A DNA stretch of 64,000 nt from Verrucomicrobia bacterium S94 (GTDB taxonomy: Bacteria > Verrucomicrobiota > Kiritimatiellia > Kiritimatiellales > Pontiellaceae). The stretch spans positions 62,001 through 126,000 of the forward strand of contig CP036201.1 of the NCBI GenBank assembly GCA_004299845.1, written 5' to 3'. Below, piece by piece: positions 20,953 to 48,705 of this stretch. The notes under the pieces were generated by a model. That model saw only the letters and a program-made list of their open reading frames with translations. It had not been told where the DNA came from and did no database searches. A program made the translations under genes and the position numbers. Numbering within the stretch: the first letter of the stretch is position 1; each line of letters starts with the position of its first letter.

Positions 20953-20961
20953 ACAGGGATG

Positions 20962-21048
20962 GCCGATTTCCGAATGCCGATTTCCGTTTGTTTACCCGGC
21001 GGGTGTAAAAGTGAACGGATAAATCGGCAGTCTAAAATCGGCATTCGG
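20962..21048. repeat. Nested inverted repeat between aldehyde dehydrogenase and cycloisomerase genes
   Basis: CCGAATGCCGATTT (20970-20983) is the perfect inverse of AAATCGGCATTCGG (21035-21048). GCCGATTT (20962-20969) is inverted at 21021-21028. GCCGATTTCCG is also directly repeated in the left half. The ~109 bp gap is otherwise empty and separates two genes expected to be co-transcribed, so it looks like a dispersed intergenic repeat or mRNA-stabilising hairpin. Confidence 0.65.
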
Positions 21049-21061
21049 TAACGGGATTAAG

Positions 21062-22165: not shown

Positions 22166-22182
22166 GGGGAACCGGGCTGGAG

Positions 22183-22192
22183 TGTACGCATT
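22183..22192 (+). promoter_or_regulatory. TGTACGCATT motif shared with the GH2 upstream region
   Basis: The ten bases TGTACGCATT here match 15437-15446 exactly and lie 57 bp before the start codon of the zinc dehydrogenase. Only a half-site is present. Confidence 0.3.
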
Positions 22193-22248
22193 TCAGTCGT
22201 TTGCTCCGTAAGGTCTTCAATACGAATTTTCAAATAAAGGAATGGAAA

Positions 22249-23265: not shown

Positions 23266-23283
23266 ATTAACAGGAGAAGAACA

Positions 23284-27937: not shown

Positions 27938-29323
27938 ATGTGGATTAAAACGGGTTTTATGGTTCTACTGTTTTCGCTGTCTGTTTTGGCTGCTGATAAG
28001 CCGAATATTGTGCTGTTGTTTGCGGATGATGCGGGATACGGGGATTTCGGATTTCACGGCAGCCGCCATTTCAGAACGCCGCATCTGGATGCGCTGGCGA
28101 AGGACGGGGTTGTGCTGACCCAGTTTTATGTAACGGGGGCCACGTGCGGACCGTCGCGCGCCGGGCTGCTGTCGGGCCGTTATCAGCAGCGCTTCGGATT
28201 CGAGGAGATTAATGTACCGGGAATCATGAGTCCTCACTCAAAACTGCTGGGCGACGAAATGGGGCTGCCGACCGATTTTCCAACCCTTGGAAATTATCTT
28301 CAGGAGCTGGGCTATAAAACCGCAGTCTTCGGAAAATGGCATATGGGGGTGGCGGATCGGTATCATCCGCTGAAACGCGGTTTTGATGAGTTTTACGGGT
28401 TCCGGGGCGGCGCACGCAGTTTTTTCCCTTATCCGCAGCCGGAGAAACAGAAACATGAAAATCTGCTGGAACGCAATTTCGGGGAATTTAAAGAACACGA
28501 GGGCTATCTGACGGATGCGCTGGCCGCTGAAACATGCGATTTTATAGCCCGTCACCGGGATGAGCCGTTTTTTGCCTATGTTGCGTTCAATGCGGTACAT
28601 ACCCCGATGCAGCCGGATCCGAAAGATAAAGATAAGTTTCCGCAGCTTGAGGGAAACCGCCGCAAAGTGGCGCAGATGACATTGTCGCTGGACCGCGCGT
28701 GCGGGAGAATTATGGATACCCTGAAAGCGCTGGGGCTTTACGAAAATACGCTGATTGTTTTTTCGAACGACAATGGTGGACCGATGGATAAAAACGGGTC
28801 GAGCAATTATCCGTTTTCCGGTGTGAAGGGCACGCAGCTGGAGGGGGGAATCCGTGTGCCCGGCGTGGTGGCCTGGCCGTCGAAACTGCCGCGGGGAAGA
28901 ACGTATGATTATCCCATGATTACACTGGATCTGATTCCAACCTTTGTAAAAGCGGGCGGAGGGGAACCGGCGGAAAATCTGGATGGGGTGGATATGATGC
29001 CGTATCTGCTGGGCGAAAAAACGGGGCGGCCGCATCAGACGCTGCACTGGAAAATGGAAACGCGCGCCGCGATCCGCGACGGTGACTGGAAACTGCTGCG
29101 CTTCCCGGACCGGCCACCACAACTGTATAATTTAGCTGAAGATCCCGGCGAGCAGCATGATCTGGCGGCGGAACATCCGGATCTGGTGAAACAGCTTTTC
29201 AAAAAACAGTTTGAATGGGAAATGGAGCTGCAGCGTCCGCTGTTTATGCTCCGCCGTCAGGAGGAGGCGTGGTCAGCCCGCCGGGCCGATGAATTTTCGG
29301 TTCCTCCTTCTGCGGATTATTAG
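27938..29323 (+). CDS. S1-family sulfatase, secreted
   Basis: A 461-residue protein starting after AAGGAG, with a signal peptide (residues ~1-17, 'SVLAADKP'). Motifs: 'NIVLLFADDAGYGDFG' at the metal site, activation motif C70-GPSR-AGLLSGR, 'GKWHMG', and 'FSNDNGG'. It is a compact arylsulfatase-like enzyme, distinct from the longer sulfatase at 3752, so the two probably remove sulfate from different positions. The neighbours are a GH29 and a GH2 enzyme, matching a desulfate-then-cleave order on galactan oligosaccharides. The terminal ~20 residues are charged and probably disordered. Confidence 0.9.
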   Translation: MWIKTGFMVLLFSLSVLAADKPNIVLLFADDAGYGDFGFHGSRHFRTPHLDALAKDGVVLTQFYVTGATCGPSRAGLLSGRYQQRFGFEEINVPGIMSPHSKLLGDEMGLPTDFPTLGNYLQELGYKTAVFGKWHMGVADRYHPLKRGFDEFYGFRGGARSFFPYPQPEKQKHENLLERNFGEFKEHEGYLTDALAAETCDFIARHRDEPFFAYVAFNAVHTPMQPDPKDKDKFPQLEGNRRKVAQMTLSLDRACGRIMDTLKALGLYENTLIVFSNDNGGPMDKNGSSNYPFSGVKGTQLEGGIRVPGVVAWPSKLPRGRTYDYPMITLDLIPTFVKAGGGEPAENLDGVDMMPYLLGEKTGRPHQTLHWKMETRAAIRDGDWKLLRFPDRPPQLYNLAEDPGEQHDLAAEHPDLVKQLFKKQFEWEMELQRPLFMLRRQEEAWSARRADEFSVPPSADY

Positions 29324-29556: not shown

Positions 29557-32808
<3,252 letters not shown>

Positions 32809-32809
32809 A

Positions 32810-35200
32810 ATGATGAATAAAGCCACATTAGCGGGTTGTGTACTGGCAGGCGCGGTTATGTCGTCGGCGTTCGCCGGTTCCGGAAACGTGCCATTGAAGG
32901 AGCAGGCTCTGGTGAAAATCGGTGAACTTGAAGCGCTGATGGATCAGGCCCGTGCGAAGGAACTTTGTGTGGCACGTGAAGAAACCGTGGTGTGGTTTTC
33001 AAAGGAGTTTATTAAGTTTGCAGATTGGGATGAAGCCCATAAGGAGGCGAATGAATATCTGTTCGGCGTCTACCATCAGCCCTTTAAAAGTCGGAAGAAG
33101 GAACTGGCGGAACAGTTGCCGGATTTCGAGCGGAAGAAAGTTATTGAGCTGCTGGACAAGGGCATTGCCACACTGAGCGCGGTAATCCGCGGTGAGATCG
33201 TTCGTCGTCCTGTAAACCGGGTGAACTGGGAAAATATCGAGGTGGTTGAGGATGTTCTGCTGAGTAACGGTAAACCGGTTTTTCTGTATGACTATTTTTC
33301 CAAATCGGTGGGCCGTCCGCTGACTGATAAACAGGTGTATAATGATCATCTCGGGGCCATCTTCCACGGTGGTGAAAACCTGTATCCGGTCGACCATGAT
33401 CGGGCGATCAATTCATTTCTGCTGAAGGAAGACGGATCGTGGGATGAGGAACTGCTGAAAGAGATTACCGAAATTCATAATACTAACGTCGGGTTTCTGC
33501 TGTTCTGGAACGGCGGGATTCCGGAGTGGGTGCTGGAGAGAGAACCGGAGGCGGATAAAGGACGAAGCCTTTTCACGGGCTATGATATCGATAATCCGCT
33601 GATGCGTGAGGTATGGGGGAAAATCGCCCGTAAGTCAGGGGAACTTACCCGCGGTAAAAAAGTGACCCAGCTCGGCTATATTCTTTCCAATGAGCCGCAC
33701 TGGTATGCGGCGAAGGAGCACTGGACTCAGCGGTATAAAGAGATGAATTCGGTTTCTTCGTACACGGATGCCCGCTTTAAAGCATGGCTGAAGAAAAACT
33801 ATAACGGTGATATCGGGAAACTGAACAGCAATTGGGAAAGTGAATTCAGAAGCTTTGAAGAGGTTTCCTATCCGTTCCCGCTTCCGCGTTCGTTGCGGGG
33901 AACAGCGCTGTGGTATGATTTCTGCCGTTTTAATATGGACCGTGTAACGGATTGGTTTACCTATATTCAGAATGAATTGCGTAAAGGAAATCCGGAAGCG
34001 GAGACAAGCATCAAATTGCAACCCAATCTGTTTTCCGAAAATTACCGTTCGCACGGCATTGATGTGGAAGCACTGACCGAACTGACGTCGATGATCGGCG
34101 ATGATGCCAAAACGAAATGGATCCGGAATCTGAATGCAAATCAGTCTGAACCTTGGGAGGCGCACTACGCCTATTGCTGGGAAGAGCTGAGCATGACCTA
34201 CGATTTTCTGGAATCGGTTGCGCCGAACAAGATTCACTTCAACTCGGAAAACCATTTTCTATCGGCTTCGTGGGTACGCGAGCTGGATATGCCCGAGGAG
34301 TATGTGCGCAACGTCTACTGGCTGGCGACAATCCAGGGCATGGATGCCAATCTGGCCTGGTGGTGGGCACGCGATCCGGACGGATCTCCGGAAGACCGTA
34401 TGGAAGGTGAACTGAATTTCTTTGATCCGGCGTTGGCCGGATCCTATGCGGCTTCGGCCAATCAGCAGCCGCATGTGGTGAATGAAGTGACGCAGGTGAT
34501 GTATGACCTGAACAGCGTTTCGGAAGAAATCATGGCCATTCGCCGGCAGCGTCGTCCGGTTCGTCTGTTCTACTCGGAAACCTCATCGATCAACAAATCC
34601 CGGCACATGAGCGATCAGTTTGAGATGTATGAAAAACTGTTTTTCGAAGGTTTTCCGCTGGGCTATGTGACGGAAAAAATTCTGACCAGACAGGATCACC
34701 GTCTATGGGATACGGTGGTGGTGTATAAAACACCGTTTGTGACCGATTCCGAATTTGCGGCGTTACAGCAGTATCTGGATGGCGGCGGCACAGTGATTGT
34801 CGATGCCTGGAGTCTGGACAGAAACCAGTATGGTCGACCGCGCCGGGAAAAGCTTTCCCCGGGGAAGGGGCGGCTGATTGTGCTTCCGAAAAGTGCAACT
34901 CCGGAGCAGATGAAGCAGAAAGCTCTGGCATTGAGCCCGGGGGCAAAACAGCCGGTTGTTGTTTCCGAGGATAACGGATCAACACACAAGGGCTGCACCT
35001 GGCGTGTGGTGAGAAATCCGAACGGAGAAGGTTATCTGGTTAATATTCTGAATCTGGGAAAACACCCGGCCGAGCTGCAGCTGAAGGATTCGAACGGAAA
35101 GCCGGTGGATGCAGTTGATGTGCTTACGGGGAAATCGATGGGTTCTGCATTTGCACTGAAATCCAACGGGGTGCTGTTGCTGAATGTTGCGGCGCGGTAA
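32810..35200 (+). CDS. GH42-like (clan GH-A) glycoside hydrolase, secreted
   Basis: A 796-residue protein with a signal peptide ending 'SAFAGS'. A helical segment (~35-125) precedes a TIM barrel with acid/base E295 ('LSNEPHWY') and likely nucleophile E480 ('HFNSENHF'). After it a flavodoxin-like domain (~585-690: 'RPVRLFYSETSS', 'YLDGGGTVIVDAWS') resembles the trimerisation domain of GH42 beta-galactosidases, followed by a small C-terminal beta-domain. The helical N-terminal extension is not standard for GH42, so it may belong to a related clan-A family acting on algal galactans (GH50 or GH167 are candidates). Coupling to the LacZ-type gene supports a galactoside substrate. Confidence 0.75.
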   Translation: MMNKATLAGCVLAGAVMSSAFAGSGNVPLKEQALVKIGELEALMDQARAKELCVAREETVVWFSKEFIKFADWDEAHKEANEYLFGVYHQPFKSRKKELAEQLPDFERKKVIELLDKGIATLSAVIRGEIVRRPVNRVNWENIEVVEDVLLSNGKPVFLYDYFSKSVGRPLTDKQVYNDHLGAIFHGGENLYPVDHDRAINSFLLKEDGSWDEELLKEITEIHNTNVGFLLFWNGGIPEWVLEREPEADKGRSLFTGYDIDNPLMREVWGKIARKSGELTRGKKVTQLGYILSNEPHWYAAKEHWTQRYKEMNSVSSYTDARFKAWLKKNYNGDIGKLNSNWESEFRSFEEVSYPFPLPRSLRGTALWYDFCRFNMDRVTDWFTYIQNELRKGNPEAETSIKLQPNLFSENYRSHGIDVEALTELTSMIGDDAKTKWIRNLNANQSEPWEAHYAYCWEELSMTYDFLESVAPNKIHFNSENHFLSASWVRELDMPEEYVRNVYWLATIQGMDANLAWWWARDPDGSPEDRMEGELNFFDPALAGSYAASANQQPHVVNEVTQVMYDLNSVSEEIMAIRRQRRPVRLFYSETSSINKSRHMSDQFEMYEKLFFEGFPLGYVTEKILTRQDHRLWDTVVVYKTPFVTDSEFAALQQYLDGGGTVIVDAWSLDRNQYGRPRREKLSPGKGRLIVLPKSATPEQMKQKALALSPGAKQPVVVSEDNGSTHKGCTWRVVRNPNGEGYLVNILNLGKHPAELQLKDSNGKPVDAVDVLTGKSMGSAFALKSNGVLLLNVAAR

Positions 35201-35211
35201 GAGGGGAAACG

Positions 35212-36795
35212 ATGAAAAACTATCAGAGGAATGCCTTTATTTTTGCCACGATCGTTGCGATCGGCGGTCTGGTGTTCGGGATCGATGCGGTGCTCATTTC
35301 CGGGACGACCAGCTATATTACTGAAGAGTTCGGTCTGACACCGGATATGTTGGGCAATGTGGTTTCATCGACGCTGCTCGGTGTTCTCATTGCATTGCCG
35401 TTTGTCGGGCCTGCGTGCAACAGTTTCGGGCGGAAGCGCGTGATTCAGATTATTGCTGTGCTCTATCTGATTTCTGCCGTCGGCTCCACTTTTGCGCCGG
35501 GGTACTGGACACTGTTCATTGCCCGTTTTATCGGCGGCCTCGCATTCAGTTCCATCACATTGGCCTCGATGTATATCGGCGAAATTTCGCCGCCGAGCTG
35601 GCGCGGAAAGCTGGTGGCGATGACGCAGATCAATATTGTGATCGGGCTGACGTTGGCCTATTTCATAAACGATGCAGTTTTTAAAGCCTCAGTTTCCGGA
35701 ACCGGCTGGGCGGAATCGCTGGGGTTTGCGGATCATACCTGGCGCTGGATGCTGGGTTCGGAAATTCCGGCCGCGGCTATCTGGCTGGTTCTGCTTTTCT
35801 TCATTCCGGAAAGTCCGTCGTGGCTGTTTTATAAAGGGCGTGAAGCGGAAGCGCGCAGTGTGCTCACAAAGCTGCTGTCCGATGATGAAATCGATCATCA
35901 TCTTGATGAGATGCGTGAGAGTATGGCCGAGAACGCACAGGAGCACGATATTCTTACCCAGTTTAAAGAGATTTTCGGGCGGCGCATGCGTCTGATTCTG
36001 GTGATTGCCGTGACGTTTGCTATTGCACAGCAGGCATCGGGAATAAATGCGATTATGTTTTATGCCACCACGGTGGTGGAACAGCTCGGTTTCGGTACGG
36101 ATGCCGCTTTTACCCAGACGGTTCTGTTTGGTGTGGCCAGCCTTGTCTTCACGATTGTGGCTCTGCTGCTGGTCGATAAAATCGGCCGTCGTCCGTTGAT
36201 TGTCGGCGGTATGCTCTGGATTATTGCGAGCCTCGGCGTCGGTGCCTACAGTTTTTCACAGGCGACCTATACCCTGCAGCAAAACACTATTGTCGAATTG
36301 ACCGATGCGGGGATTTTTCCGCAACCGGAGCGGCTGGAAGCCATTGTCGGTGTGGAATATCACAGTGATGTAGAGTTTAAGGCTGCCATTAATGAGGTGC
36401 TCGGAGAAAAGGATGCACGGAATAATCAGAGTCTGCTGATTCAGAATGCCGCTCAGATGAATGCGATGCTGATTTTTATCTGCATGCTCAGTTTTATTGC
36501 GGCGTTTCATTTTTCCATCGGTCCGATTATGTGGATTGTTTTTTCAGAAATTTTTCCGATATCGCTACGCGGAATTGCTATTCCGCTCTTCGGTTTCATC
36601 AGTACATTTGTCAGCTGGAGTGTGGCCAAATTTTTTCCGGTACAGCTTGATAAGCTGGGGATGGCTTCCACGCTGCTGACCTATGCTGGTTTTGTTGCGG
36701 CAGGGCTGGTGGTTCTCTTCTTTACGTTCAAGGAAACCAAAGGCCTGTCAATCGAGGAGATTCAGCAGAAGCTGGTTATTAAAACCAAGGTCTGA
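35212..36795 (+). CDS. MFS sugar porter (sugar:proton symporter family)
   Basis: A 527-residue inner-membrane protein with 12 predicted segments and sugar-porter signatures: 'GFGRKR'-type loop ('NSFGRKR'), 'RFIGGLAFS', 'PESPSWLF' after TM6, 'DKIGRRPL', and 'FKETKGLSIEEI' near the end. It should import a monosaccharide such as galactose or anhydrogalactose. An unusual ~70-residue soluble insertion lies between TM9 and TM10 (about residues 355-425, rich in charged residues). The gene starts 11 bp after the GH42-like gene and just before GH127, so import is built into this unit. It is the only obvious transporter in the galactan region. Confidence 0.88.
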   Translation: MKNYQRNAFIFATIVAIGGLVFGIDAVLISGTTSYITEEFGLTPDMLGNVVSSTLLGVLIALPFVGPACNSFGRKRVIQIIAVLYLISAVGSTFAPGYWTLFIARFIGGLAFSSITLASMYIGEISPPSWRGKLVAMTQINIVIGLTLAYFINDAVFKASVSGTGWAESLGFADHTWRWMLGSEIPAAAIWLVLLFFIPESPSWLFYKGREAEARSVLTKLLSDDEIDHHLDEMRESMAENAQEHDILTQFKEIFGRRMRLILVIAVTFAIAQQASGINAIMFYATTVVEQLGFGTDAAFTQTVLFGVASLVFTIVALLLVDKIGRRPLIVGGMLWIIASLGVGAYSFSQATYTLQQNTIVELTDAGIFPQPERLEAIVGVEYHSDVEFKAAINEVLGEKDARNNQSLLIQNAAQMNAMLIFICMLSFIAAFHFSIGPIMWIVFSEIFPISLRGIAIPLFGFISTFVSWSVAKFFPVQLDKLGMASTLLTYAGFVAAGLVVLFFTFKETKGLSIEEIQQKLVIKTKV

Positions 36796-36826
36796 TTTTT
36801 AAACCTGTAACTTTAGGATGTTAACC

Positions 36827-38797
36827 ATGAGTATTCCTGCAGTGACCGATAATGCGAACAGTCCGTTTGTGAAGTTTAAGTCGATCGGCATCGGTGAGTG
36901 CCGCTGGACGGAAGGCTTCTGGGCTGATAAATTCAAACAGTGCGAAGAGACGATGGTTCCGTATATGGGCGCGGTGCTGAAAGGCGACGTCGGTCATGCG
37001 TACAACAACTTTAAAATCGCTGCCGGCCTGATGGCCGGGGAACATCAGGGGTTCTACTGGCATGACGGAGACTTCTTTAAATGGATGGAGGCCTGCGTTC
37101 ATATTTATGCCGTTAACAGAGACGAAAAGCTGATGGATGAACTGGATGAAATCCTGAAGCTGATAGCGGAGGTGCAGGAAGGCGATGGATACCTGCATAC
37201 CTATATTCAGATAAATAACATCGGTCATTTTTCAAACCGGAAATATCATGAAATGTATAACTGCGGGCACCTTTATACCGCCGCCTGCATTCATTATCGC
37301 GTTACGGGGAAAACCAATTTTCTGGACATTGCGGTTAAAAATGCGGACCTGCTCTATAGTCTTTTCCAGCCTCAGCCGCCGGAGTTGGGACGCTTCGGAT
37401 TCAATCAGTCGCAGATTATGGGGCTGGCCGAGCTGTACCGTACCACCAGAGATACGCGCTACCTAGAGCTGGCCGAAATCTTCATCAACAACCGGGGGAA
37501 ATATCCGGTGGTGCATGATTCGACGACGGAGGGCTATCCGATCGGCGATATGGTGCAGGAGACGGTTGCTATACGCGAAGAAACCGAGGCCGCTGGACAT
37601 GCCGTATTGGCGCTTTACTACTATGCCGGAGCTGCCGATGTTGCGGCTGAGACCGGAGAGCAGGCGCTGTTGGATGCCCTTGACCGGTTGTGGAACAGCG
37701 TGGTGAACCGGAAGATGTATGCCACCGGCGCCGTCGGACAGACCCATTTCGGTTCTTCGCCGCGCCGGCAGCTCATTGAAGAAGGGTTTATTGATGACTA
37801 CAAAATGCCGAATACAACGTCGTATAATGAAACCTGTGCGAATATTGCGAATGCCATGTTCAGTTATCGCATGCTTGGTATTAAAGGGGAGTCAAAGTAT
37901 GCAGACATCATGGAACTGGTGCTGCACAATAGTGCGCTGGTAGGAATCGGGCATAGTGGGAAAGATTATTTCTATGCCAATCCGCTGCGTTTTGTTCATG
38001 GTCAGCGCGAATACGACGATGATCCCGAAGTGACGGAATCGCCGCACCGTGAGCCCTATCTTGAATGCTTCTGCTGTCCGCCGAATCTGGTGCGCACGAT
38101 TGCGAAGGTTTCCGGCTGGGCGTACAGTCTGGCACCGAACGGGATATCGGTGAATCTTTACGGCGCGAATGAACTTTCGACCTGTCTGCAGGACGGTTCC
38201 GCCCTTAAGCTGCGCCAGCAGACGGACTATCCGTGGGATGGTGCCGTGACGATTACGATGGAGGAGTGTAAAGCCGATGCATTTGATCTCTATCTGCGTA
38301 TTCCGGAATGGGCGGAGGACGCAACTGTTCTGGTGAATGGCGTAGCATCCGGAGCGGTTGTACAGGCCGGTGAGTTTGCCGTGCTGAGCCGTGAATGGAA
38401 AGCAGGCGATACGGTTGAGCTGAACCTCCCGATGGATGCCGTGTTTATTGAAGGGCATCCCTATATCGAGGAAGTGCGCAATGAAGTGGCTGTAAAACGC
38501 GGGCCGCTGCTCTATTGCATTGAATCTCCGGATCTTCCGAAAGAGGTGTCGATTCTTGACGTCTACCTGCAGGGGGATGCCGAGCTCAAGGTGGAAGATC
38601 AGCCGGATCTGCTCGGCGGCGTGAAGACTATCCGCACCGATGTGCTGTTGCGTAATGATACGGATAAAAGCCGGATGTATCACCGGGTATCCAAACCGGA
38701 TTTCACTCCATTTAAAGCTCAGCTGATTCCGTATTATGCCTGGAGTAATCGCGGTACTGCGGAAATGACTGTGTTCATGCCGGTGATCTGGCATTGA
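36827..38797 (+). CDS. GH127-family glycoside hydrolase, cytoplasmic, zinc-thiolate site intact
   Basis: Start at ATG 36827, nine bases after AGG; an in-frame ATG at 36818 is less well placed. The 656-residue protein lacks a signal peptide. It has the (alpha/alpha)6 barrel (~20-430) and beta-domains of GH127 (DUF1680). The active site reads E335-x-C337 in 'YNETC' and C414-F-C416-C417-PP. The reference beta-L-arabinofuranosidase HypBA1 uses E338, C340, C417 and C418 around zinc with a cysteine nucleophile, so the chemistry is conserved. GH127 members acting on 3,6-anhydro-D-galactose of carrageenan are also known. Here it follows a sugar porter, implying that an imported disaccharide is cleaved inside the cell. 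Confidence 0.88.
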   Translation: MSIPAVTDNANSPFVKFKSIGIGECRWTEGFWADKFKQCEETMVPYMGAVLKGDVGHAYNNFKIAAGLMAGEHQGFYWHDGDFFKWMEACVHIYAVNRDEKLMDELDEILKLIAEVQEGDGYLHTYIQINNIGHFSNRKYHEMYNCGHLYTAACIHYRVTGKTNFLDIAVKNADLLYSLFQPQPPELGRFGFNQSQIMGLAELYRTTRDTRYLELAEIFINNRGKYPVVHDSTTEGYPIGDMVQETVAIREETEAAGHAVLALYYYAGAADVAAETGEQALLDALDRLWNSVVNRKMYATGAVGQTHFGSSPRRQLIEEGFIDDYKMPNTTSYNETCANIANAMFSYRMLGIKGESKYADIMELVLHNSALVGIGHSGKDYFYANPLRFVHGQREYDDDPEVTESPHREPYLECFCCPPNLVRTIAKVSGWAYSLAPNGISVNLYGANELSTCLQDGSALKLRQQTDYPWDGAVTITMEECKADAFDLYLRIPEWAEDATVLVNGVASGAVVQAGEFAVLSREWKAGDTVELNLPMDAVFIEGHPYIEEVRNEVAVKRGPLLYCIESPDLPKEVSILDVYLQGDAELKVEDQPDLLGGVKTIRTDVLLRNDTDKSRMYHRVSKPDFTPFKAQLIPYYAWSNRGTAEMTVFMPVIWH

Positions 38798-38988: not shown

Positions 38989-40851
38989 ATGAAAACCGAA
39001 TATACATTATGCGCGCTTTTCAGCGCAGGTCTGATGATCAGTCAGGTACAGGCGGGAATTACGTTTGAGGACGATTTTGAAAGTTATACCCCCGGAGATT
39101 CTCCGTCCCCTACAAATGTGTGGGTTGATGCAGAGGGAATGACTGTGACCAACGGGGGGAGCTGGGGATCGCAGTGGGTAAACAATGTCAGTACCGATGG
39201 CTGGAGTTTTGCAACGCTGGACATGCCGGACGCGGCTGTGATGACGATCTCATTTGATGCATATTTTGACACTGCTGATTTCGGAGACGGTTATATGCGC
39301 ATGAGCATGAACGGGGATCTGGGAAATGTGAACCGGCTCGATTTCGGGAAAAACTGGGATATGCGCAAGGGTACGGATTTCAGCATGGATAAAGTACAGC
39401 ATTTTGATGTGGTCATGAATCTGAGCGGAGCAACCGTGAACTATAACGGAACTTCGATTGCGCATGACAGTTTCGCGGTATGGGTTGACGGAGCGCAGGC
39501 CGGCCCGGCTTCCGGTACTGCCGGCAGCGGCGGGGAGTATCCGATGGATCAGAGCGGTTCGGAGAATAATACGCTGATTACCAAGGTCGGGTTCTGGGTT
39601 AATGCAGCGGCGGTACAGCTCGATAATATCGAAGTGCGGGATGAAGCCTACGTAATTCAGTATCCATGGGATACCGTATTCAATTATGAGTTTGACGGAA
39701 CGGTGGATGGTACCGTTTTCTCGAATCTCGGTGGATGGGACAGTCTGAATCAGTGGGGCTTCGGTTTTATCAATACGAATGTCACCGGTGCGCGGCTAGT
39801 GCACCGTCCGGAAAGCACAGAGCCGGAATTTGAAGTCAACAAAAAGGGCTGGAACTGGCGTGGTGTGATCCTGACCAACGGACTGGGCCGTGCTGTGGTG
39901 ACCAATGAAGCGATTGAGTTCAAAATGGATTATTCCATGTTTGCCTATACAGAGCGTTCGAACCGCAACGGGATCGATTTTTTCCTGACCACCAATCATA
40001 CGGCACTTGCGGATAATACGGCTCCGCATGAGGCTTCGCAGCAGTATTTCGGCAGTGAACCCGAAGCGCAGATGGGATTCCGGACCAAACAGCTGAATTG
40101 GGAAGTCGGCGGTGCATGGCCGGATGGCGGTTTCGGGCTTACGCTGGATCCCGTTAATGTCGGAGATGTACAGCTTTCGATGAGTCTGAATGCGATCGGT
40201 ATTACCAATTTGTCCGGAGGTGTTGCGGCAGACATTGAGAGTATCCCGATGACTATTACCTACACAGCTCAGAAAACCACGAATGCTGGGATCTGGCGTG
40301 TCAGCGTTGAAATTGCGAATGCCGACGGCGACGTACTGCAATCCTACAGCGACAGCAGCTATACCAATCAGGTCCTTTATGACGCGGAGGATATCTATTT
40401 CGGAATGTACGCTTTTCACAATGCAGAAGGTGAAGAAGGGGCGGAAATGGATAATATGCGGCTTCGGATTCTGCATGAGGCGGAGCCGGTTTATACGCCA
40501 TATGAAAATTTCCTGATTACTTATGGCCTTCTGGGTGAAAGTAAAACTGCAGACAGCGATGAGGACGGCCTGAACAACTGGGGCGAATATGTATTCGGCG
40601 GAAACCCGACCAATGGAAACGATGTGGGCAGTCAGCCTGTATTCGATGCGGTTTCCGGAAATTATATTTTCAATCTGATTGGTGATAATTCGGTAATTGC
40701 CCATATCCAGGAAACCGATGATTTGGTGATCGGTACCTGGTCGACCATTGATACGGTGGCTGTTTCGGAAACCAACAGGGTTCTGAACGCCTATACCAAC
40801 TCGGTCGGAACGTCGGCAACGAAGAAGTTTCTGAAGCTGATTGTTGATTAA
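38989..40851 (+). CDS. Secreted protein sharing its N-terminal domain with the GH16 enzyme; possible lectin-type second domain
   Basis: A 620-residue protein with a strong ACAGGAGG site and a signal peptide ending 'SQVQAG'. Residues ~25-220 form a beta-sandwich-like domain that matches residues ~20-210 of the GH16 protein downstream ('DxTFGxxxGDGYxRMxMNG', 'NRLDxGKNWDMRKG', 'VVMNLSG'). Residues ~225-500 look like a second large beta-domain ('GWDSLNQWGFGFIN...') with no catalytic pair that I recognise. The C-terminus carries the calcium-loop module 'DSDEDGLNNWGEYVFGGNP'. Its role is unknown; carbohydrate binding is the simplest inference. The unit is flanked by terminators, so it is probably transcribed alone. 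Confidence 0.78.
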   Translation: MKTEYTLCALFSAGLMISQVQAGITFEDDFESYTPGDSPSPTNVWVDAEGMTVTNGGSWGSQWVNNVSTDGWSFATLDMPDAAVMTISFDAYFDTADFGDGYMRMSMNGDLGNVNRLDFGKNWDMRKGTDFSMDKVQHFDVVMNLSGATVNYNGTSIAHDSFAVWVDGAQAGPASGTAGSGGEYPMDQSGSENNTLITKVGFWVNAAAVQLDNIEVRDEAYVIQYPWDTVFNYEFDGTVDGTVFSNLGGWDSLNQWGFGFINTNVTGARLVHRPESTEPEFEVNKKGWNWRGVILTNGLGRAVVTNEAIEFKMDYSMFAYTERSNRNGIDFFLTTNHTALADNTAPHEASQQYFGSEPEAQMGFRTKQLNWEVGGAWPDGGFGLTLDPVNVGDVQLSMSLNAIGITNLSGGVAADIESIPMTITYTAQKTTNAGIWRVSVEIANADGDVLQSYSDSSYTNQVLYDAEDIYFGMYAFHNAEGEEGAEMDNMRLRILHEAEPVYTPYENFLITYGLLGESKTADSDEDGLNNWGEYVFGGNPTNGNDVGSQPVFDAVSGNYIFNLIGDNSVIAHIQETDDLVIGTWSTIDTVAVSETNRVLNAYTNSVGTSATKKFLKLIVD

Positions 40852-40873
40852 CATTTAGAACAGATTGAATGGA

Positions 40874-40911
40874 GAGAGGTGCCCGGCGTTGCAGAGGGGT
40901 ACCTCTTTTCT
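40874..40911 (+). terminator. Probable rho-independent terminator
   Basis: AGAGGTGCC pairs with GGTACCTCT (one G-U pair) across a GC-rich loop, followed by TTTTC. Confidence 0.6.
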
Positions 40912-41072
40912 TCTGCAGAATGCGTTCCCGGGATAATCACCGCTGCATGAATCGGTCAATCAGAGATCAGCTTTGTGCTGTATTGACCATGTTGAAATGC
41001 AGAGTAACACGACATATTGATCCAATGCTGAAAGTTTCAGGTTATTGATCAATGGGTTTCAAAGGAGAGAAT

Positions 41073-42908
41073 ATGAAAAAAATATTTTTTGTTGTTTCAG
41101 TTCTGGCGGGATATTCGGCCGCAGCCGGAATTGTGTTTGAGGATACATTTGAAGACGACGTGCCCGGTGCTGCGCCGGCGGCTCCGGAGTGGGCGGATAC
41201 GGCAGGCATGACAATCACCGGCGGATCCCCAGTGGACACTCAGTGGCTGGAGATAACGTCCGATGCCGAATGGACATTCGGAATGCTGAATCCGCCGGAT
41301 GCATCGGTAATGACGCTTTCGTTCGATGGATATTTCGGGACAGCTTCTTTCGGTGACGGTTATCTGCGGATGAATATGAACGGAAACTACAGTGCTTTGA
41401 ACCGGCTGGACTGGGGAAAAAACTGGGACATGCGTAAAGGCAGTGAATTTGCTCTGGATACCGTTCAGCACGTTGATGTGGTCATGAATCTGAGCGGATC
41501 GCCGGTGACCTGTAATGGAAGCAGTCTGGCACACAATGAATTTTCTGTATGGATTGACGGAGTTCAGGTGCTGCAGGGTACCATGGACCAGAGTGGCTCG
41601 GAAACAAACACGGCGGTCTCGGGTATCGGAATGTGGATGTATGCGGGGAGTGGATCTTCAGCTGTTTACATCGATAATGTGACGGTTCGTGATGAGGCGT
41701 ATGTTTATGAGAAATCTGCTCCGGTGTATTATCCCCATACCGATCCGGGGAATGCCGGAAACTGGGTATTGCTTGAAGCAGTGAGCGACGAGTTTGAAGG
41801 TACGCAGCTGGATGAAACCAAATGGCAGGTCTGCGGACGGGCCGGCGTCTACTGGAATAATCAGTTTTCCGGGCGCTCATATTCCTCATCCAATGGCGAC
41901 AGCTGGGATACCGGCTGGGAATACAGTCCGGATAATCTGCGGGTGACCAACGGAATGCTGAAGATCAGAACGGAATATGATCCCTCTTTTAACTGGGTGA
42001 ACGATCCGTATGGAAATAACGAATTCACCACGGGCGGGATGTGGTCGAAAGCGCTGTCCGGTGAAACCGGATATATGGAAATCCGATGCAAACATCCGGA
42101 TGCGAGCACGGTTGCGGCATTCTGGACGACGGCAGGCCCGGAGAGTCCGGCCTGTGAAATAGATGTATTCGAAGCCATTGGAAGCCCTTCATCCAATTTT
42201 TCCCGAACCAATAAAATGTGGTCATCACTTCATGACTGGTCGAAACCGATCCCAAACTCGTCCTGGACCGAAACCTCCGGACTTCCTTTTAACTTCAAAG
42301 ACGGATTTCATACCTATGCTGCCGAGTGGGATGAGGAAAATCTGAAAATCTATGCCGATGGACGGCTTGTTCATTCAACAAGCCGTAGCTGGGTCGAAAC
42401 CAACGGCATTCATTCAACCCGATGGCCCCTTCCGGGAGAACAGCATATCTGGGTGGATGCAGAAATTTTCCCGTGGTGGGGGATTCCGGATCCGTCCAGT
42501 CTGCCGGCTGAATTCGAGGTGGAATATATCCGGGTCTGGGAAAAAGGCGCTCCGACTGCATGGCATAATTTTGCAGAGAAATACCAGCTGAGCGGGATGA
42601 AGACCGATCATTCCGATTCCGATCAGCTGAATGACTGGGGCGAATATGTATTCGGAGGGAATCCCACCAATGGCGACGACATCGGAGTAGTGCCGTCATT
42701 TAATAGAACAAGCGGCTGTTATACGTTCAGCCTGATCGGAGACGATACGGTTGTTGCTCACGTGGTCAGTACACCGGACCTGCGGCTGGACATATGGAAC
42801 ACAAACGAAACTATTTCGGTAACAGAAACAAACGGATTGCTTAATGCCTACACCTACATTGCCGGGACAGGGGACAGCAATCTGTTCCTGAAGCTAGAAG
42901 TCGAATAA
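41073..42908 (+). CDS. GH16 endo-hydrolase (agarase/porphyranase/carrageenase group) with N-terminal accessory domain
   Basis: Start at ATG 41073 behind AAAGGAGAG; the frame extends 21 bases upstream without a better site. Signal peptide residues 1-~19. Residues ~20-215 are the accessory domain shared with the previous protein. Residues ~225-490 are the GH16 jelly roll: 'AVSDEFEGTQLDETKW', 'GGMWSKA', the catalytic line E362-I-D364-V-F-E367, and 'FHTYAAEWDEENLKIYADG'. The C-terminal calcium-loop module 'DSDQLNDWGEYVFGGNP' ends the protein. GH16 marine members cut beta-1,4 bonds in agarose, porphyran, kappa-carrageenan or furcellaran. The exact substrate cannot be read, but the GH86/GH117 context favours agar or porphyran. 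Confidence 0.88.
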   Translation: MKKIFFVVSVLAGYSAAAGIVFEDTFEDDVPGAAPAAPEWADTAGMTITGGSPVDTQWLEITSDAEWTFGMLNPPDASVMTLSFDGYFGTASFGDGYLRMNMNGNYSALNRLDWGKNWDMRKGSEFALDTVQHVDVVMNLSGSPVTCNGSSLAHNEFSVWIDGVQVLQGTMDQSGSETNTAVSGIGMWMYAGSGSSAVYIDNVTVRDEAYVYEKSAPVYYPHTDPGNAGNWVLLEAVSDEFEGTQLDETKWQVCGRAGVYWNNQFSGRSYSSSNGDSWDTGWEYSPDNLRVTNGMLKIRTEYDPSFNWVNDPYGNNEFTTGGMWSKALSGETGYMEIRCKHPDASTVAAFWTTAGPESPACEIDVFEAIGSPSSNFSRTNKMWSSLHDWSKPIPNSSWTETSGLPFNFKDGFHTYAAEWDEENLKIYADGRLVHSTSRSWVETNGIHSTRWPLPGEQHIWVDAEIFPWWGIPDPSSLPAEFEVEYIRVWEKGAPTAWHNFAEKYQLSGMKTDHSDSDQLNDWGEYVFGGNPTNGDDIGVVPSFNRTSGCYTFSLIGDDTVVAHVVSTPDLRLDIWNTNETISVTETNGLLNAYTYIAGTGDSNLFLKLEVE

Positions 42909-43084: not shown

Positions 43085-43840
43085 ATGAAAAAAAGCATGA
43101 TCATATCCGCGGTGTCTGCTGCCTGTGCTATGGCTCAGGCGGAAGTTATTGTGTCGTGGGGGCCGACAAATGGAGCGGTCAGTGTGCATCAGGATCTGAC
43201 TGTGGTTCAGACTTTCACGGATGCAGCTTACCAAAGTCCGACTGTGGGAGGGGATTATGACGGAAGTGCAGTCGCAAATCCGTATTTTTATGCAGCCGTA
43301 AGTGCTCCGGCGGGCCCGCAGGGGCTGTCGATCTGGAATGGGGCCAACACGGACCTGCTGGGGCGTTATCAGGGTTCCTCCGCCGCCGGAACCACGGACT
43401 CTCTTATGCTGGCCTGGGATGTCACCAATACACATCGGCTGGAGTCTTTTTCTTTGTTCGGTGTCGGGGAGTTCGGCGGAATGACCGGCCGGGAAGTCCG
43501 CTGGCTGTTGCAGGACCGCTCCGGAGACTGGTATGCCAGCGTGGCTGTCACGGGTTTTGGAAACAATGCTGATCTTACTACGGCAGATGTTACCACCATG
43601 AACTGGTTCGCATTCTCGCCGCACAATGAGGGCGTAGTAACTATTGGTGAAACGGAAGCTGCCGTAGATTTTACGGGTGTTCAGAAGGTCGGATTCTATC
43701 ATCAGTGGGAAACCGATGGCGGCGGGGGAATCTATCAGACCGGTTTTGAGGTCAGTGTTGTTCCGGAGCCGGCAACATTCGGTTTGGTTATGACTTTCGG
43801 AAGCGGGGTGTTCTTTGTCCGTCGCCGCTTCATGATGTAA
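43085..43840 (+). CDS. PEP-CTERM sorted surface protein of unknown function
   Basis: A 251-residue protein with a GGAGG site, a signal peptide ending 'AMAQAE', a beta-rich body with Trp and aromatic strands ('GLSIWNGANTDLLGRY', 'LLQDRSGDWYAS'), and the sorting tail 'VPEPATFGL', a hydrophobic span and 'RRRFMM'. The last six residues equal those of the PEP-CTERM protein at 2990, though the bodies are unrelated. The body is of a type common in PEP-CTERM cargo, with no enzyme motif. Surface display next to the GH16 gene suggests a role in substrate or biofilm contact; this is inference. Confidence 0.83.
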   Translation: MKKSMIISAVSAACAMAQAEVIVSWGPTNGAVSVHQDLTVVQTFTDAAYQSPTVGGDYDGSAVANPYFYAAVSAPAGPQGLSIWNGANTDLLGRYQGSSAAGTTDSLMLAWDVTNTHRLESFSLFGVGEFGGMTGREVRWLLQDRSGDWYASVAVTGFGNNADLTTADVTTMNWFAFSPHNEGVVTIGETEAAVDFTGVQKVGFYHQWETDGGGGIYQTGFEVSVVPEPATFGLVMTFGSGVFFVRRRFMM

Positions 43841-44103: not shown

Positions 44104-45219
44104 ATGAAAAAGAGCAAAGTTAAAAGTGGAAAAGGGGTCGTCAAGGGCGCTCCGAGCGGGTTTGTCATCAGTATTGCGATTCATGCGGCGGCTTTTGCGC
44201 TGGCCGGTATGCTGGTGGTGTTCAATGTGGTACAGAAAGAGGAGAAAAAGTTTATTCCGCCCAAGCCGGTTGACCGCCCGAAGATGAAACTGAAGAAGCC
44301 GAAAGTTAAGGTGAAGAAAAGTTCCCGGCCTAAATCCACCACTCGTATTGTTACTAAAGTGCAGAAGGCGAGTATGCCGGATATTCAGCTTCCGGAAATG
44401 AGTGGAATCGGGGAGGGACTGTCCGGTGATATCGTCGGTTTTGATATGGCTCCGGATCTGGAGGAGGTCAGCTTCTTCGGATCGGAACATTCGATCGGGA
44501 ATGATTTTGTCGGTACGTATTATGATATGAACCGCGACCGCAGCGGAAGACCTGTTCCGATGGATCCCGATACCATGGCCAATATTGTGAAGAACTTTCT
44601 GATCAAAGGCTGGAAAAGTAGTGTTTTCTCAAGATATTATCAGGCTCCGAAAAAGCTGTTCACAACACATTTCTGTGTTCCGACCGAGCTCTCTACCCTC
44701 GGTCCGGCCGCCTTCGGTCAGGAGGACGGGGCCTCCTGGTGCTGGCTGGCCCACTACAAAGGTCAGCTGGTTTATCCCGAAGATATCCGTATCCGTTTCT
44801 GGGGGCAGGGTGATGACTATATGATTGTTCGGGTTGACGGGGAGATTGTCCTGCTTGCCACCTGGCCGCAGGGTCCTGAACCCTATCTTATATCGGTCTG
44901 GGACTCTGATGCTGCGGACAACCGTAAATATGCTATGGGCAACAATCTCTCGGTAGTCGGAGACTGGATTGACCTGAAGGCCGGAGAACCGCTGGATATG
45001 GAGGTATTGATCGGTGAGGGCGGTGGCGGTCTTTTTACCGCTATGCTCTGTGTGGAGGTTGAAGGGGAGGAGTATCCGAAAAATCCGTTTATGCTCGGAC
45101 CGACGCTTCCGATTTTCAAAACCGAGGAACTGAGTCAGGACATGGTGGACTCCATTCACTTTATGCTGGCCGAGGGCGATGCGTGTGTAACCAACGGCCC
45201 TGTCTTTAAAGACTATTAA
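44104..45219 (+). CDS. Inner-membrane anchored protein with TonB-like linker and PA14-like C-terminal domain
   Basis: A 371-residue protein. A short basic N-terminus is followed by one membrane segment (residues ~18-42, 'GFVISIAIHAAAFALAGMLVVF'), then a Lys/Pro-rich linker (~48-80, repeated 'KPK/KVK') as in TonB proteins. The C-terminal ~230 residues include 'FWGQGDDYMIVRVDGEIVL', resembling the beta-strand core of PA14-type ligand-binding domains. The TonB C-terminal fold itself is not evident. A periplasmic sensing or scaffold role is possible. The downstream gene starts 19 bp later, so the two form a pair. I do not recognise a named family. Confidence 0.72.
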   Translation: MKKSKVKSGKGVVKGAPSGFVISIAIHAAAFALAGMLVVFNVVQKEEKKFIPPKPVDRPKMKLKKPKVKVKKSSRPKSTTRIVTKVQKASMPDIQLPEMSGIGEGLSGDIVGFDMAPDLEEVSFFGSEHSIGNDFVGTYYDMNRDRSGRPVPMDPDTMANIVKNFLIKGWKSSVFSRYYQAPKKLFTTHFCVPTELSTLGPAAFGQEDGASWCWLAHYKGQLVYPEDIRIRFWGQGDDYMIVRVDGEIVLLATWPQGPEPYLISVWDSDAADNRKYAMGNNLSVVGDWIDLKAGEPLDMEVLIGEGGGGLFTAMLCVEVEGEEYPKNPFMLGPTLPIFKTEELSQDMVDSIHFMLAEGDACVTNGPVFKDY

Positions 45220-45238
45220 TTCAAACAGGACTCCCGTG

Positions 45239-46009
45239 ATGAAACATCGATACCTATTTTCTGTCTTAAGTGCCGCATTGCTGGCCATTCCGGTTTGTGC
45301 GGAAATGCAAACGTGGACCACATCGGATGGGAAAACATTTGAAGCTGAATACATAAACCGAATGGGGCCGAACGCAATTTTAAAAACCGCAAAAGGCAAG
45401 CAGATCAAGGTTCCGCTAAGGCGGTTGTCTGAAGAGAACAGAGAGTATATTCAGCTTCAGCATCCTCCGAAGTTTAATATCGAATTTATCAATATCAGCG
45501 AAAAGGTTCCGCCCCCGCCTTCAAGTCCGTTTGTCGACCTGTTTTTTCCCAGCCGTTGTTTTGACTGGACCTTCGGGGTACGGGTGAAGCAGAAAGATGC
45601 CAGCTTTGACTATGGGCATGAAATTTTCATTGAATACTATGCCCTGGGGAAGGAAGTGGGCGGAGATCATTATGTCTATCTGAGCCATGGAGAAAGCAGT
45701 TTTACGCCGACAAAAGAAAATCGGGGTATTTACTCTTTTCAGGCTGAAAATCCGGTACGGCTTCAGGCCAAAGCGCTTACCGATCAGGCATCGTTACGGG
45801 GGATAGAATATGATGGCTATGTTGTGATTCTGAGGGATAAACGCGGGGAGATCATTCAGCACAGTGAGTCCAGCAAGGCTTTTTTCAGTAATATTGATAA
45901 TATCGGGAAGCTTCATTTTCCGAACCGCTTCAATGATGAAGGTGTGCGTGTGGGAGCATCCCGTCCGAAAGAGGTTCTGGATCGCGGAAATCCCTGGCTC
46001 TTTAAGTAG
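45239..46009 (+). CDS. Secreted SHD1-domain protein
   Basis: Start at ATG 45239 (a GTG three bases earlier is possible). The protein has ~256 residues with a signal peptide ending 'PVCAEM'. Residues ~22-75 form an SLA1-homology domain 1: 'TWTTSDGKTFEAEYI...AILKTAKGKQIKVPLRRLSEEN', frequent in PVC secreted proteins. The remaining ~180 residues are a beta-rich domain without a recognised motif. It is paired with the TonB-like/PA14-like protein upstream, which makes a shared periplasmic complex plausible but unproven. Confidence 0.78.
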   Translation: MKHRYLFSVLSAALLAIPVCAEMQTWTTSDGKTFEAEYINRMGPNAILKTAKGKQIKVPLRRLSEENREYIQLQHPPKFNIEFINISEKVPPPPSSPFVDLFFPSRCFDWTFGVRVKQKDASFDYGHEIFIEYYALGKEVGGDHYVYLSHGESSFTPTKENRGIYSFQAENPVRLQAKALTDQASLRGIEYDGYVVILRDKRGEIIQHSESSKAFFSNIDNIGKLHFPNRFNDEGVRVGASRPKEVLDRGNPWLFK

Positions 46010-46228: not shown

Positions 46229-46945
46229 ATGATCCATTTGATTAAGTTATCAGGAGTCGGTATGGCTGTATTTGCGGTTTCCGCAGCGTTGGCCCGGACG
46301 ACCATTATCGGAGGATCAATCGGCAATGGAAATTTTAATGGGAACGGTGCGGAAGCGGGATCGGGGGTAACGCTTACATATGCTGAGACACCGAACTGGT
46401 TCCATGCCGCGGGGGACGAAAGCTGGAACTTTATTTTTACGTCGGGAATGATCGGGAGTGATGATTCCACTTCCGGCGGGGCCTATATCTTTAATAACCG
46501 GCTGACGGTGAATGATACGGGATACACTATTTCGGCTGCCGGCGAGGTGTTTTCGTTGTCGTATCAGTTCGGTGCCGGCGGCGGAGAATCGAACTGGGAA
46601 AGCGGCAATGATGTTCTGCGCGCATACCTTTTTACATCGGCCGCGCCGGTGGATGCTTCGTTGACTTCGAATGCCATGATTCAGATCAGTGGAAACGATG
46701 ACTATTACGTGAACCGGCCGCTGAACGGTCAGTGGACCTATCATGCAAATAATGCGTTCTATACCACTATGGCTGCAGATGTCGGAAAGACGGTTTATCT
46801 GGCACTGGTGTTTATTGATGATGGGGCGGGAACCGGAACCCCGAGGCTAGAAAATCTGATGCTGACGGTTGACGGAGGTATCACCAATCCCCGGCTGAAC
46901 AGGTGCAAACCGACTGGGCGGTGTATGTTGAGCGATATGGGCTGA
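46229..46945 (+). CDS. N-terminal part of a frameshifted secreted sulfatase (beta-sandwich domain)
   Basis: An AAGGAGGAGAG site, ATG and signal peptide (residues 1-~22, 'SAALART') open a ~215-residue beta-rich domain ('IIGGSIGNGNFNG', 'GKTVYLALVFIDD'). The sensible sequence ends at about base 46888 ('GGITNP'); the remaining ~19 residues of this frame look random. One base added to the C-run at 46888-46893 would join it to the downstream frame as 'NPPAEQVQTDWAVYVERYG', which is the usual continuation into a calcium-loop module. I therefore read this and the next entry as one gene split by a single-base loss, real or from sequencing. Confidence 0.75.
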   Translation: MIHLIKLSGVGMAVFAVSAALARTTIIGGSIGNGNFNGNGAEAGSGVTLTYAETPNWFHAAGDESWNFIFTSGMIGSDDSTSGGAYIFNNRLTVNDTGYTISAAGEVFSLSYQFGAGGGESNWESGNDVLRAYLFTSAAPVDASLTSNAMIQISGNDDYYVNRPLNGQWTYHANNAFYTTMAADVGKTVYLALVFIDDGAGTGTPRLENLMLTVDGGITNPRLNRCKPTGRCMLSDMG

Positions 46946-48705
46946 ACGGATATTACCTGACTGATACCGATGGTGACGGCGTTTCGGACCGTATGGAGTT
47001 TGCTCATGGCGGGAATCCGACCAATCCGGTCGATGCCGGGCAGTTTCCTGCTTTCTCTGTAAGTAATGCTGCTGCGGATTTTATCAGTATGGAAGTGGCC
47101 GGTACGAATTCCGGTATCTGTTATACAGCGGAATGGACGGATAATCTGATTACGGGAGAATGGCGCCAGGCCTGGGCTATGACCAACAGCACCCCGTCTG
47201 CAGTTTCAAACTACAATGAAGTGGTTTATCGGAAAGATGAAGGGCCGGAGGATCAGGTCTTTTTCAGAAATCGCATTTTTCCACCGGTGTCGCGACCGAA
47301 TATTCTTCTCATCCTGGCCGATGATCTGGGTTATGCAGATGTCGGTTTTAATCATCCCTATTCCGGCCCGAACAAAAACAATGCCTATAACGGAACGGCT
47401 CAGGTTTCGACGCCGGAGCTCGACCGGCTGGCCGGTGCGGGTGCCGTTTTCACTTCGGCATACGTTGTTCATCCCTTCTGCGGTCCGAGCCGCATGGGCC
47501 TGTTTTCCGGGCGTTATCCGCACGATTTCGGAGGGCCGTTCAATCTTCCGGATGATAATTCCGGGTATTATTCCGACCAGGGTATCAGCACCAATGAGGT
47601 GCTGCTCAGCAGTATGCTGCAGGAGGCCGGATACTATACCGGTCTGATGGGGAAATGGCATCTGGGGCAGGATTCGGAATATCACCCCAACAACCGTGGG
47701 TTTGATGAGTTCTACGGGTTCCTCGGCGGGGGGATTGTTTACTGGGGCCCCTATCAGGCCGGCGGGTGGGATTATCTGCGGTATCCGCAGTATAACGGAG
47801 TGGCGGATACTTCTCTGGGATCGGATGATCATATTACCGATGTGCTGACCGGGAAAGGTATCGATTTTATCGAACAGGCAGCCGCCACTGAAGATCCTTT
47901 TTTTCTGGTCATGTCCTATAATGCACCGCACTCCATTATGGTTGATGGGCGCAATGACCGCGACCAGGCCAAAGCGGAGGACCTTGCGGTCTTCGCCGAC
48001 GTGCCGGATCGCTATAGAAGAAATCTGCTCGGACTGATCCGCGGGATGGACCGCTGTGTCGGGCAGCTGGTGCAGACGTTGAAAAATACCGGACAGTATG
48101 ACAACACCCTGATTGTTTTTCTCAGCGATAACGGCGGACGTTTTGACCAGGTTGGAGGATGGGGCGACAACGGTGTGCTGCGCGGCCGGAAAGGGGATGT
48201 GACCGAGGGCGGGTTCCGCGTGCCGATGTTTATGCATTGGCCGAATATGATTCCTGCCGGTGTTACCTATGATTTTCCTGTAACCGCACTGGATTTCTAT
48301 CCCACTTTTGCCCGTCTTGCGGAAACTGAGGTGCCTGCAGGTCAGGAGGTGGCGGGGAAAGATCTGTGGAATGCGCTGATGGTTGCTGAAGATGCCCGGC
48401 CTGGAGAGCCGATCTATACGGTAACCTACAGTACAACGGCAGCCAGCGTCGGTATCCGGCAGGATCAGTGGAAGGCACTGAAGCTCGGTAATAACAACTG
48501 GGTTCTTTATGACGTGGTCAATGATATCAGCGAAACCATCGATATCAGCGAGGCGAATACGGTGATACTCAGTAATCTGGTTTCTGAAGGGGAAAGCTGG
48601 AGTTCCTCTCATGTGCAGCCGCTGTGGTGGAATAACCCGTCGCAGGAGACGGACTGGAAGAACAACGGTATGCCGCATTACGAGACCGTGTTTACACTTC
48701 CGTAA
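46903..48705 (+). CDS. Calcium-loop module plus S1-family sulfatase (C-terminal part of frameshifted gene)
   Basis: The nominal start here is a GTG without a ribosome site or signal peptide, so this 600-residue frame is best seen as the second part of the gene that begins at 46229. Residues ~1-120 are the calcium-loop module ('DTDGDGVSDRMEFAHGGNP'), here placed in the middle of a protein rather than at its end. Then comes a full S1 sulfatase: 'NILLILADDLGYADVG', activation motif C193-GPSR-MGLFSGR, 'GKWHLG' and 'FLSDNGG'. If the shift is real, export would be lost and the enzyme probably inactive in place. If it is a sequencing error, the product is a ~820-residue secreted sulfatase. Confidence 0.82.
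   Translation: MQTDWAVYVERYGLNGYYLTDTDGDGVSDRMEFAHGGNPTNPVDAGQFPAFSVSNAAADFISMEVAGTNSGICYTAEWTDNLITGEWRQAWAMTNSTPSAVSNYNEVVYRKDEGPEDQVFFRNRIFPPVSRPNILLILADDLGYADVGFNHPYSGPNKNNAYNGTAQVSTPELDRLAGAGAVFTSAYVVHPFCGPSRMGLFSGRYPHDFGGPFNLPDDNSGYYSDQGISTNEVLLSSMLQEAGYYTGLMGKWHLGQDSEYHPNNRGFDEFYGFLGGGIVYWGPYQAGGWDYLRYPQYNGVADTSLGSDDHITDVLTGKGIDFIEQAAATEDPFFLVMSYNAPHSIMVDGRNDRDQAKAEDLAVFADVPDRYRRNLLGLIRGMDRCVGQLVQTLKNTGQYDNTLIVFLSDNGGRFDQVGGWGDNGVLRGRKGDVTEGGFRVPMFMHWPNMIPAGVTYDFPVTALDFYPTFARLAETEVPAGQEVAGKDLWNALMVAEDARPGEPIYTVTYSTTAASVGIRQDQWKALKLGNNNWVLYDVVNDISETIDISEANTVILSNLVSEGESWSSSHVQPLWWNNPSQETDWKNNGMPHYETVFTLP

Follow-up and report, generated by a model that had tools for sequence, protein, structure and literature searches.

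A domain of predicted lectin fold common to a probable GH16_13 carrageenase and its non-enzymatic neighbour in a carrageenan-type gene cluster of Verrucomicrobia bacterium S94

Two adjacent genes for secreted proteins were analyzed within a 64,000-nucleotide stretch of the genome of Verrucomicrobia bacterium S94 (Verrucomicrobiota; Kiritimatiellales), positions 62,001 to 126,000 of contig CP036201.1, referred to here as the window. The proteins, named after the window positions of their start codons, begin with the same domain (N, with copies N1 and N2) and end with the same module (C), between which the 38989 protein carries a second domain (M) and the 41073 protein a catalytic domain of glycoside hydrolase family 16 (GH16). 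Their features, in window coordinates, are as follows.

38989-40851, + strand: 38989 protein, secreted, non-enzymatic, 620 residues; signal peptide-N1-M-C
39052-39657, + strand: N1, residues 22-223 of the 38989 protein, from BLASTP alignment; predicted concanavalin A (ConA)-like jelly roll
39655-40488, + strand: M, residues ~223-500; predicted legume-lectin-like jelly roll with no GH16 catalytic motif
40486-40851, + strand: C-module of the 38989 protein, a DxDxDG loop (KTADSDEDGLNNW from residue 519) and a small beta-domain ending FLKL.V
41073-42908, + strand: 41073 protein, secreted predicted enzyme, 611 residues; signal peptide-N2-GH16-C
41124-41711, + strand: N2, residues 18-213 of the 41073 protein, from BLASTP alignment
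41727-42548, + strand: GH16 catalytic domain, closest to a GH16_13 beta/kappa-carrageenase (9ijc/9int, E 4e-34)
42549-42908, + strand: C-module of the 41073 protein, from alignment with the 38989 protein

An N-terminal domain of about 195 residues common to both proteins had been proposed in the original prediction, and BLASTP alignment of residues 22-224 of the 38989 protein with residues 18-213 of the 41073 protein bears this out, with 110 of 207 columns identical (53%, E 1e-65). The alignment score of 567 lies 79 standard deviations above 500 shuffles, the highest of which scored 76; the middle parts of the two proteins score at shuffle level (z = 0.4) and are unrelated by sequence. The identical stretches GKNWDMRKG and VVMNLSG described earlier are both present in the pair. 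VVMNLSG is a signature of the whole N family, with N123 97% conserved, and GKNWDMRKG is confined to the N1/N2 subfamily. The window's genome has no full-length strong copies of the domain other than N1 and N2. Comparison with their Pontiella agarivorans orthologues shows purifying selection on both (ratios of nonsynonymous to synonymous substitution rates, dN/dS, of 0.12 and 0.22, respectively); in the same comparison dN/dS was 0.11-0.22 for N and M and 0.07 for the GH16 domain. For the second gene the start at 41073 (MKKIFF...) is preferred over that of a longer alternative open reading frame (ORF) beginning at 41052 because the ribosome-binding sequence AAAGGAG lies immediately 5' of it. Sigma-70-like promoters were fewer in the region than in shuffles and are uninformative. 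The C-terminal parts also correspond, as had been noted, with 49% identity (E 2e-34; residues 485-620 of the 38989 protein against 479-611 of the 41073 protein), but the C-module is not special to the pair, with matches at 17 places in the window's genome at E <= 1e-3. It is possibly a sorting or anchoring signal of the lineage, separate from PEP-CTERM.

The profile search and structure prediction proposed earlier as checks on N have been carried out. No member of the family received a Pfam or NCBIfam assignment for this domain in profile searches, placing N outside the catalogued families. An AlphaFold2 model built with 39 relatives is a confident beta-sandwich (predicted local distance difference test score, pLDDT, 85.5; predicted template modelling score, pTM, 0.85) with the two-sheet jelly roll of the ConA-like lectin/glucanase fold. 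Foldseek returned 98 PDB matches for this model at E <= 1e-3, headed by the lectin domain of calreticulin, TtX122, CBM66, CBM40 and the lectin domains of sialidase and galactocerebrosidase, with Cip1 also present. Assignment of N to the X122 domain was rejected, profile comparison giving E 0.08-0.5 over short pieces only, as was assignment to the 3-keto-disaccharide hydrolases (PF06439), for which one of 39 members matched at E 0.019, below the curated cut-off. N and M were likewise rejected as sequence relatives (hhalign E 0.17-0.32, not significant) and have the fold class alone in common. N is most likely non-catalytic.

In a set of 43 genomes from the order, close copies (N1 and N2) were confined to P. 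agarivorans and the genome that holds the window. Of 388 Verrucomicrobiota genomes, 13 matched an 11-member profile at E <= 1e-6, and a 39-member profile gave at least three matches in each of six Kiritimatiellales genomes. N1 and N2 by themselves retrieved nothing from 84,980 genomes; with the 11-member query the same set yielded five loci, four from Kiritimatiellales and one on a short contig filed as Anaerolineales, which may be misbinned. No N domain was found in plasmids. About 20 of some 40 distinct family members are proteins of 250-320 residues with a PEP-CTERM-like tail, and elsewhere N is fused to GH16, a polysaccharide lyase family 8 (PL8) enzyme, a sulfatase, beta-helix proteins, leucine-rich repeat (LRR) proteins or an immunoglobulin (Ig)-like domain. 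As expected of a carbohydrate-binding module (CBM), it is thus a discrete, separable domain that occurs on carbohydrate-active enzymes (GH16, PL8, sulfatase). N is an unnamed, movable module of predicted ConA-like fold, widespread in Verrucomicrobiota surface proteins. The proposal that it represents a new CBM retains its footing insofar as N is uncatalogued, has a predicted lectin-like fold and occurs as an optional addition to a galactan hydrolase; a link to GH16, or to agar or porphyran, does not hold for so broad a surface-protein domain. The distribution of N is broader, and its tie to galactan hydrolysis looser, than had been supposed; for so common a surface-protein module, presence beside a single hydrolase says little about substrate specificity.

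The catalytic domain of the 41073 protein matches PF00722 (Glyco_hydro_16; E 2e-11), and its best PDB match is 9ijc (121 bits, E 4e-34), identical in sequence to the GH16_13 enzyme 9INT. Kappa-carrageenase follows at 43 bits, with laminarinase also well behind 9ijc, and the comparison with porphyranase and agarase (<=35 bits) led to rejection of an agarase or porphyranase assignment; the kappa-carrageenase equivalog of NCBIfam was rejected at 38.8 bits against a cut-off of 350. Within the GH16 fold the catalytic ExDxxE motif is present as E362-I-D364-VF-E367, preceded by the platform residue Trp351, and an ExxxW motif (E464-IFP-W468) aligns with E-TFP-W of 9ijc. The glutamate of this motif recognizes unsulfated Gal in the -1 subsite, in place of the Trp/Arg pair of kappa-carrageenases (PMC6952198). 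ExxxW is not exclusive to GH16_13, being found also in agarases and porphyranases. Together with the closest characterized relative, these features make the 41073 protein most like an endo-carrageenase of the GH16_13 (furcellaranase) kind, as judged from sequence. Domains of GH16_13 type 55-59% identical to that of the window occur without N in two further genomes, G009 and G019, where in three of the loci (L078, L085 and L086) GH16 directly follows the signal peptide and is succeeded by the C-module and other beta-domains. Since such close relatives lack N, it is dispensable to the catalytic domain and not GH16-specific. The fourth such locus (L079:1492-3801, in G019) encodes a sulfatase and a GH16_13-type domain within a single ORF, possibly a bifunctional desulfating carrageenase.

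The pair lies in a cluster with the following further members.

27938-29323, + strand: sulfatase (PF00884), with 88% identity to its P. agarivorans counterpart across the part compared
29572-32808, + strand: GH2 beta-galactosidase-type enzyme, from a profile match; syntenic in P. agarivorans
32810-35200, + strand: GH167 (exo-beta-carrageenan enzyme family), matching 6ptm at E 1e-164 and 9whd (GH167) at E 1.5e-151
35212-36795, + strand: major facilitator superfamily (MFS)-type sugar transporter, assigned by eye from the sequence; syntenic in P. agarivorans
36818-38797, + strand: GH127 (family including alpha-1,3-(3,6-anhydro)-D-galactosidases), from profile and sequence matches
46903-48705, + strand: C-module and sulfatase, downstream member of the conserved cluster, from a profile match and synteny

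A predicted endo-carrageenase, GH167 and GH2 enzymes, GH127 and sulfatases are thus found together, the gene content of a carrageenan utilization locus. GH167 enzymes release beta-neocarrabiose, after which alpha-1,3-(3,6-anhydro)-D-galactosidases, included in GH127, are needed (PMC6923384). Because the GH16_13-like enzyme lies with GH167, GH127, GH2, a transporter and sulfatases, the expected substrate is beta/kappa-carrageenan rather than agar or porphyran. The agar/porphyran genes form a neighbouring block, with porphyranase domains in two genes at 5625 and 9067. The block from the sulfatase at 27938 to position 48705 is syntenic in P. agarivorans, with core proteins 81-93% identical. Strain NLcol2 of that species grows on agar and carrageenan (PMC10880615), and the orthologous cluster therefore sits in a proven carrageenan user.

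Downstream of the pair the two species differ at one position, the gene directly after the enzyme encoding in P. agarivorans a PEP-CTERM protein made of the N domain (L069:4294-5076) and in the window a different PEP-CTERM protein (43085-43840). Next come two ORFs (both +) with no Pfam match above cut-off. The first, at 44104-45219, encodes a protein with a single membrane helix at its N terminus and a Pro/Lys-rich, TonB-like stretch, and the second, at 45236-46009, a short protein that matches SHD1 weakly. The former shares 95% identity with its P. agarivorans counterpart and matches some ten places in the window's genome; in this genome and related ones, some of the matches adjoin porphyranase or GH16 genes, and it may mark polysaccharide loci in the lineage. 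A single uninterrupted ORF of P. agarivorans (L069, 1-1885, minus strand, running off the end of the locus), which encodes a beta-domain, the C-module and a sulfatase, corresponds to two window ORFs, 46229-46945 and 46903-48705 (both +), that overlap in different frames. The window copy has either undergone a frameshift or contains a sequencing error. Its beta-domain (IIGGS...; 46229-46945) is a third mobile one, which precedes the sulfatase here and is C-terminal on the GH16_13-type enzymes of the loci L078 and L086, from G009 and G019. At 19510-24084, beside porphyranase-type genes, an aldehyde dehydrogenase, an MR_MLE-type enzyme, a Zn-alcohol dehydrogenase and a short-chain dehydrogenase/reductase (SDR) stand in a row, presumably for anhydro-galactose catabolism.

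The 38989 protein with its M domain is the most interesting new element here. The protein has no Pfam or NCBIfam match and no GH16 ExDxxE motif, and the part following N1 had been described as an unassigned beta-domain; it does lack a database match, but is itself a second domain of predicted lectin fold. Its AlphaFold model (pLDDT 81.4, pTM 0.86) is a jelly roll with 145 PDB matches at E <= 1e-3, of which the top ones are nearly all legume lectins (E 3e-9, TM-score ~0.5). The M family was found in only four of 388 genomes of the phylum, all of one genus (Pontiella). Genes for M-proteins adjoin two of the three GH127 genes in the window's genome, two of four in P. agarivorans and one of three in G019, where an M-protein also sits between GH16_13-type genes. 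With 63% identity among the GH127 copies, part of this pairing may stem from an entire cassette having been duplicated. One histidine kinase of P. agarivorans (HisKA_3 and HATPase_c; L074:6632-9583) has an M domain as its N-terminal part, which suggests a ligand-sensing role for M and makes this kinase a possible sugar sensor.

The model favoured here, with moderate confidence, is that N and probably M are lectin-fold modules which hold the predicted endo-carrageenase and its non-enzymatic companion on a sulfated galactan. The most likely ligand of N would be this galactan, or oligosaccharides derived from it; binding would bring enzyme and companion together on one polymer, which the GH16_13 enzyme, sulfatases, GH167, GH127 and GH2 would take apart. 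The C-module may serve secretion, anchoring or calcium-dependent stability, and the companion, presumably located at the cell surface, would have a role like that of the surface glycan-binding proteins encoded in Bacteroidota loci.

Several observations weigh against this model. TM-scores of the N model to its PDB relatives are 0.4-0.6 and therefore indicate fold class, not family, and model confidence is partly low before and within GKNWDMRKG (residues 91-100, pLDDT ~60). The commonest context of the family is a PEP-CTERM protein without an enzyme domain; conservation of its best-conserved positions, F9, N123, D191 and W144, could be structural; and TtX122, the relative with the best TM-score, was tested for polysaccharide binding and enzyme activity, neither of which was clearly seen (PMC10916295). 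The foremost alternative, that N is a generic extracellular domain for structure or surface assembly, whether as a spacer or by binding the exopolymer or envelope of the cell itself, and has no substrate specificity, draws on the same data: about half of the members end in PEP-CTERM-like signals and others carry LRR or Ig-like domains, the conservation across the family is that of fold-signature residues only, and a general surface or structural role fits the PEP-CTERM and LRR members equally well. It is nevertheless considered somewhat unlikely, as N is repeatedly fused to polysaccharide-active proteins (GH16, PL8, sulfatase, beta-helix), the widely distributed C-module of the same proteins could do the anchoring, and N carries aromatics specific to the subfamily, ten or so positions being kept in all four cluster N domains and uncommon elsewhere in the family, including W51, F53, Y81, W102 and W182 (N1, domain numbering).

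Retention of N in two adjacent genes in two species would also be consistent with a protein-docking domain, the pairing of N1 with N2 (or of N with M) joining companion and carrageenase in a complex, and jelly-roll lectins often dimerize. Such a role is improbable given that M-proteins and GH16_13 enzymes coexist in clusters without N in G019 and G009 and that the N family occurs mostly in lone proteins. That the 38989 protein is instead, through N1, M or both, a new-family enzyme acting on carrageenan oligosaccharides agrees with the limitation of M to carrageenan-type loci beside GH127 in a few Pontiella genomes and with the presence of hydrolases and lyases (PL20) among ConA-like folds, but is very improbable in view of the missing ExDxxE of GH16 kind, the scarcity of invariant acidic residues among aligned M sequences, the use of M at the input end of one histidine kinase and the dominance of lectins among its fold matches.

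A bolder version of the carbohydrate-binding model is regarded as doubtful; it would make N and M two new carrageenan-binding module families and the 38989 protein the surface glycan-binding partner of the carrageenase, with M reused as the sensor of the same sugar in the histidine kinase. Capture of red-algal gels at the cell surface of Verrucomicrobiota is poorly known, and the conserved carrageenan cluster of a cultured genus contains two unnamed lectin-fold families. N is a real, unnamed domain family, though of a well-known fold and role class; should N and M bind carbohydrate, they would be new CBM families and useful probes for hybrid carrageenans.

Among known systems, the lowest Foldseek E-values were obtained with the calreticulin lectin domain for N (1e-7) and with legume lectins for M (3e-9), but with TM-scores of about 0.5, rmsd (root-mean-square deviation) values of 6-8 A and 8-12% identity these likenesses extend to fold class only. 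CBM66, CBM40 and other ConA-like modules share the fold class of N (Foldseek E 1e-5 to 1e-4) and are likewise appended to glycosidases, although TM-scores for CBM66 and CBM40 are 0.39-0.45 and there is no sequence relation. TtX122 of Teredinibacter turnerae (8q28, 8q2a) has the jelly roll most like that of N (TM-score 0.60-0.62), and both are modules of secreted, carbohydrate-linked proteins; they differ by about 30-40 residues in length and show 14% identity, with no significant sequence match. For the 38989 protein the comparison is with the surface glycan-binding proteins (SusE, SusF, SGBP) of Bacteroidota, which as non-enzymatic partners beside an endo-enzyme parallel its proposed role by analogy only. 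The GH16_13 furcellaranase of Wenyingzhuangia fucanilytica (9ijc/9int) resembles the 41073 protein over the whole catalytic domain, including ExDxxE, the preceding Trp and ExxxW; unlike that enzyme, the 41073 protein adds an N-terminal ConA-like domain and a C-terminal module of DxDxDG type.

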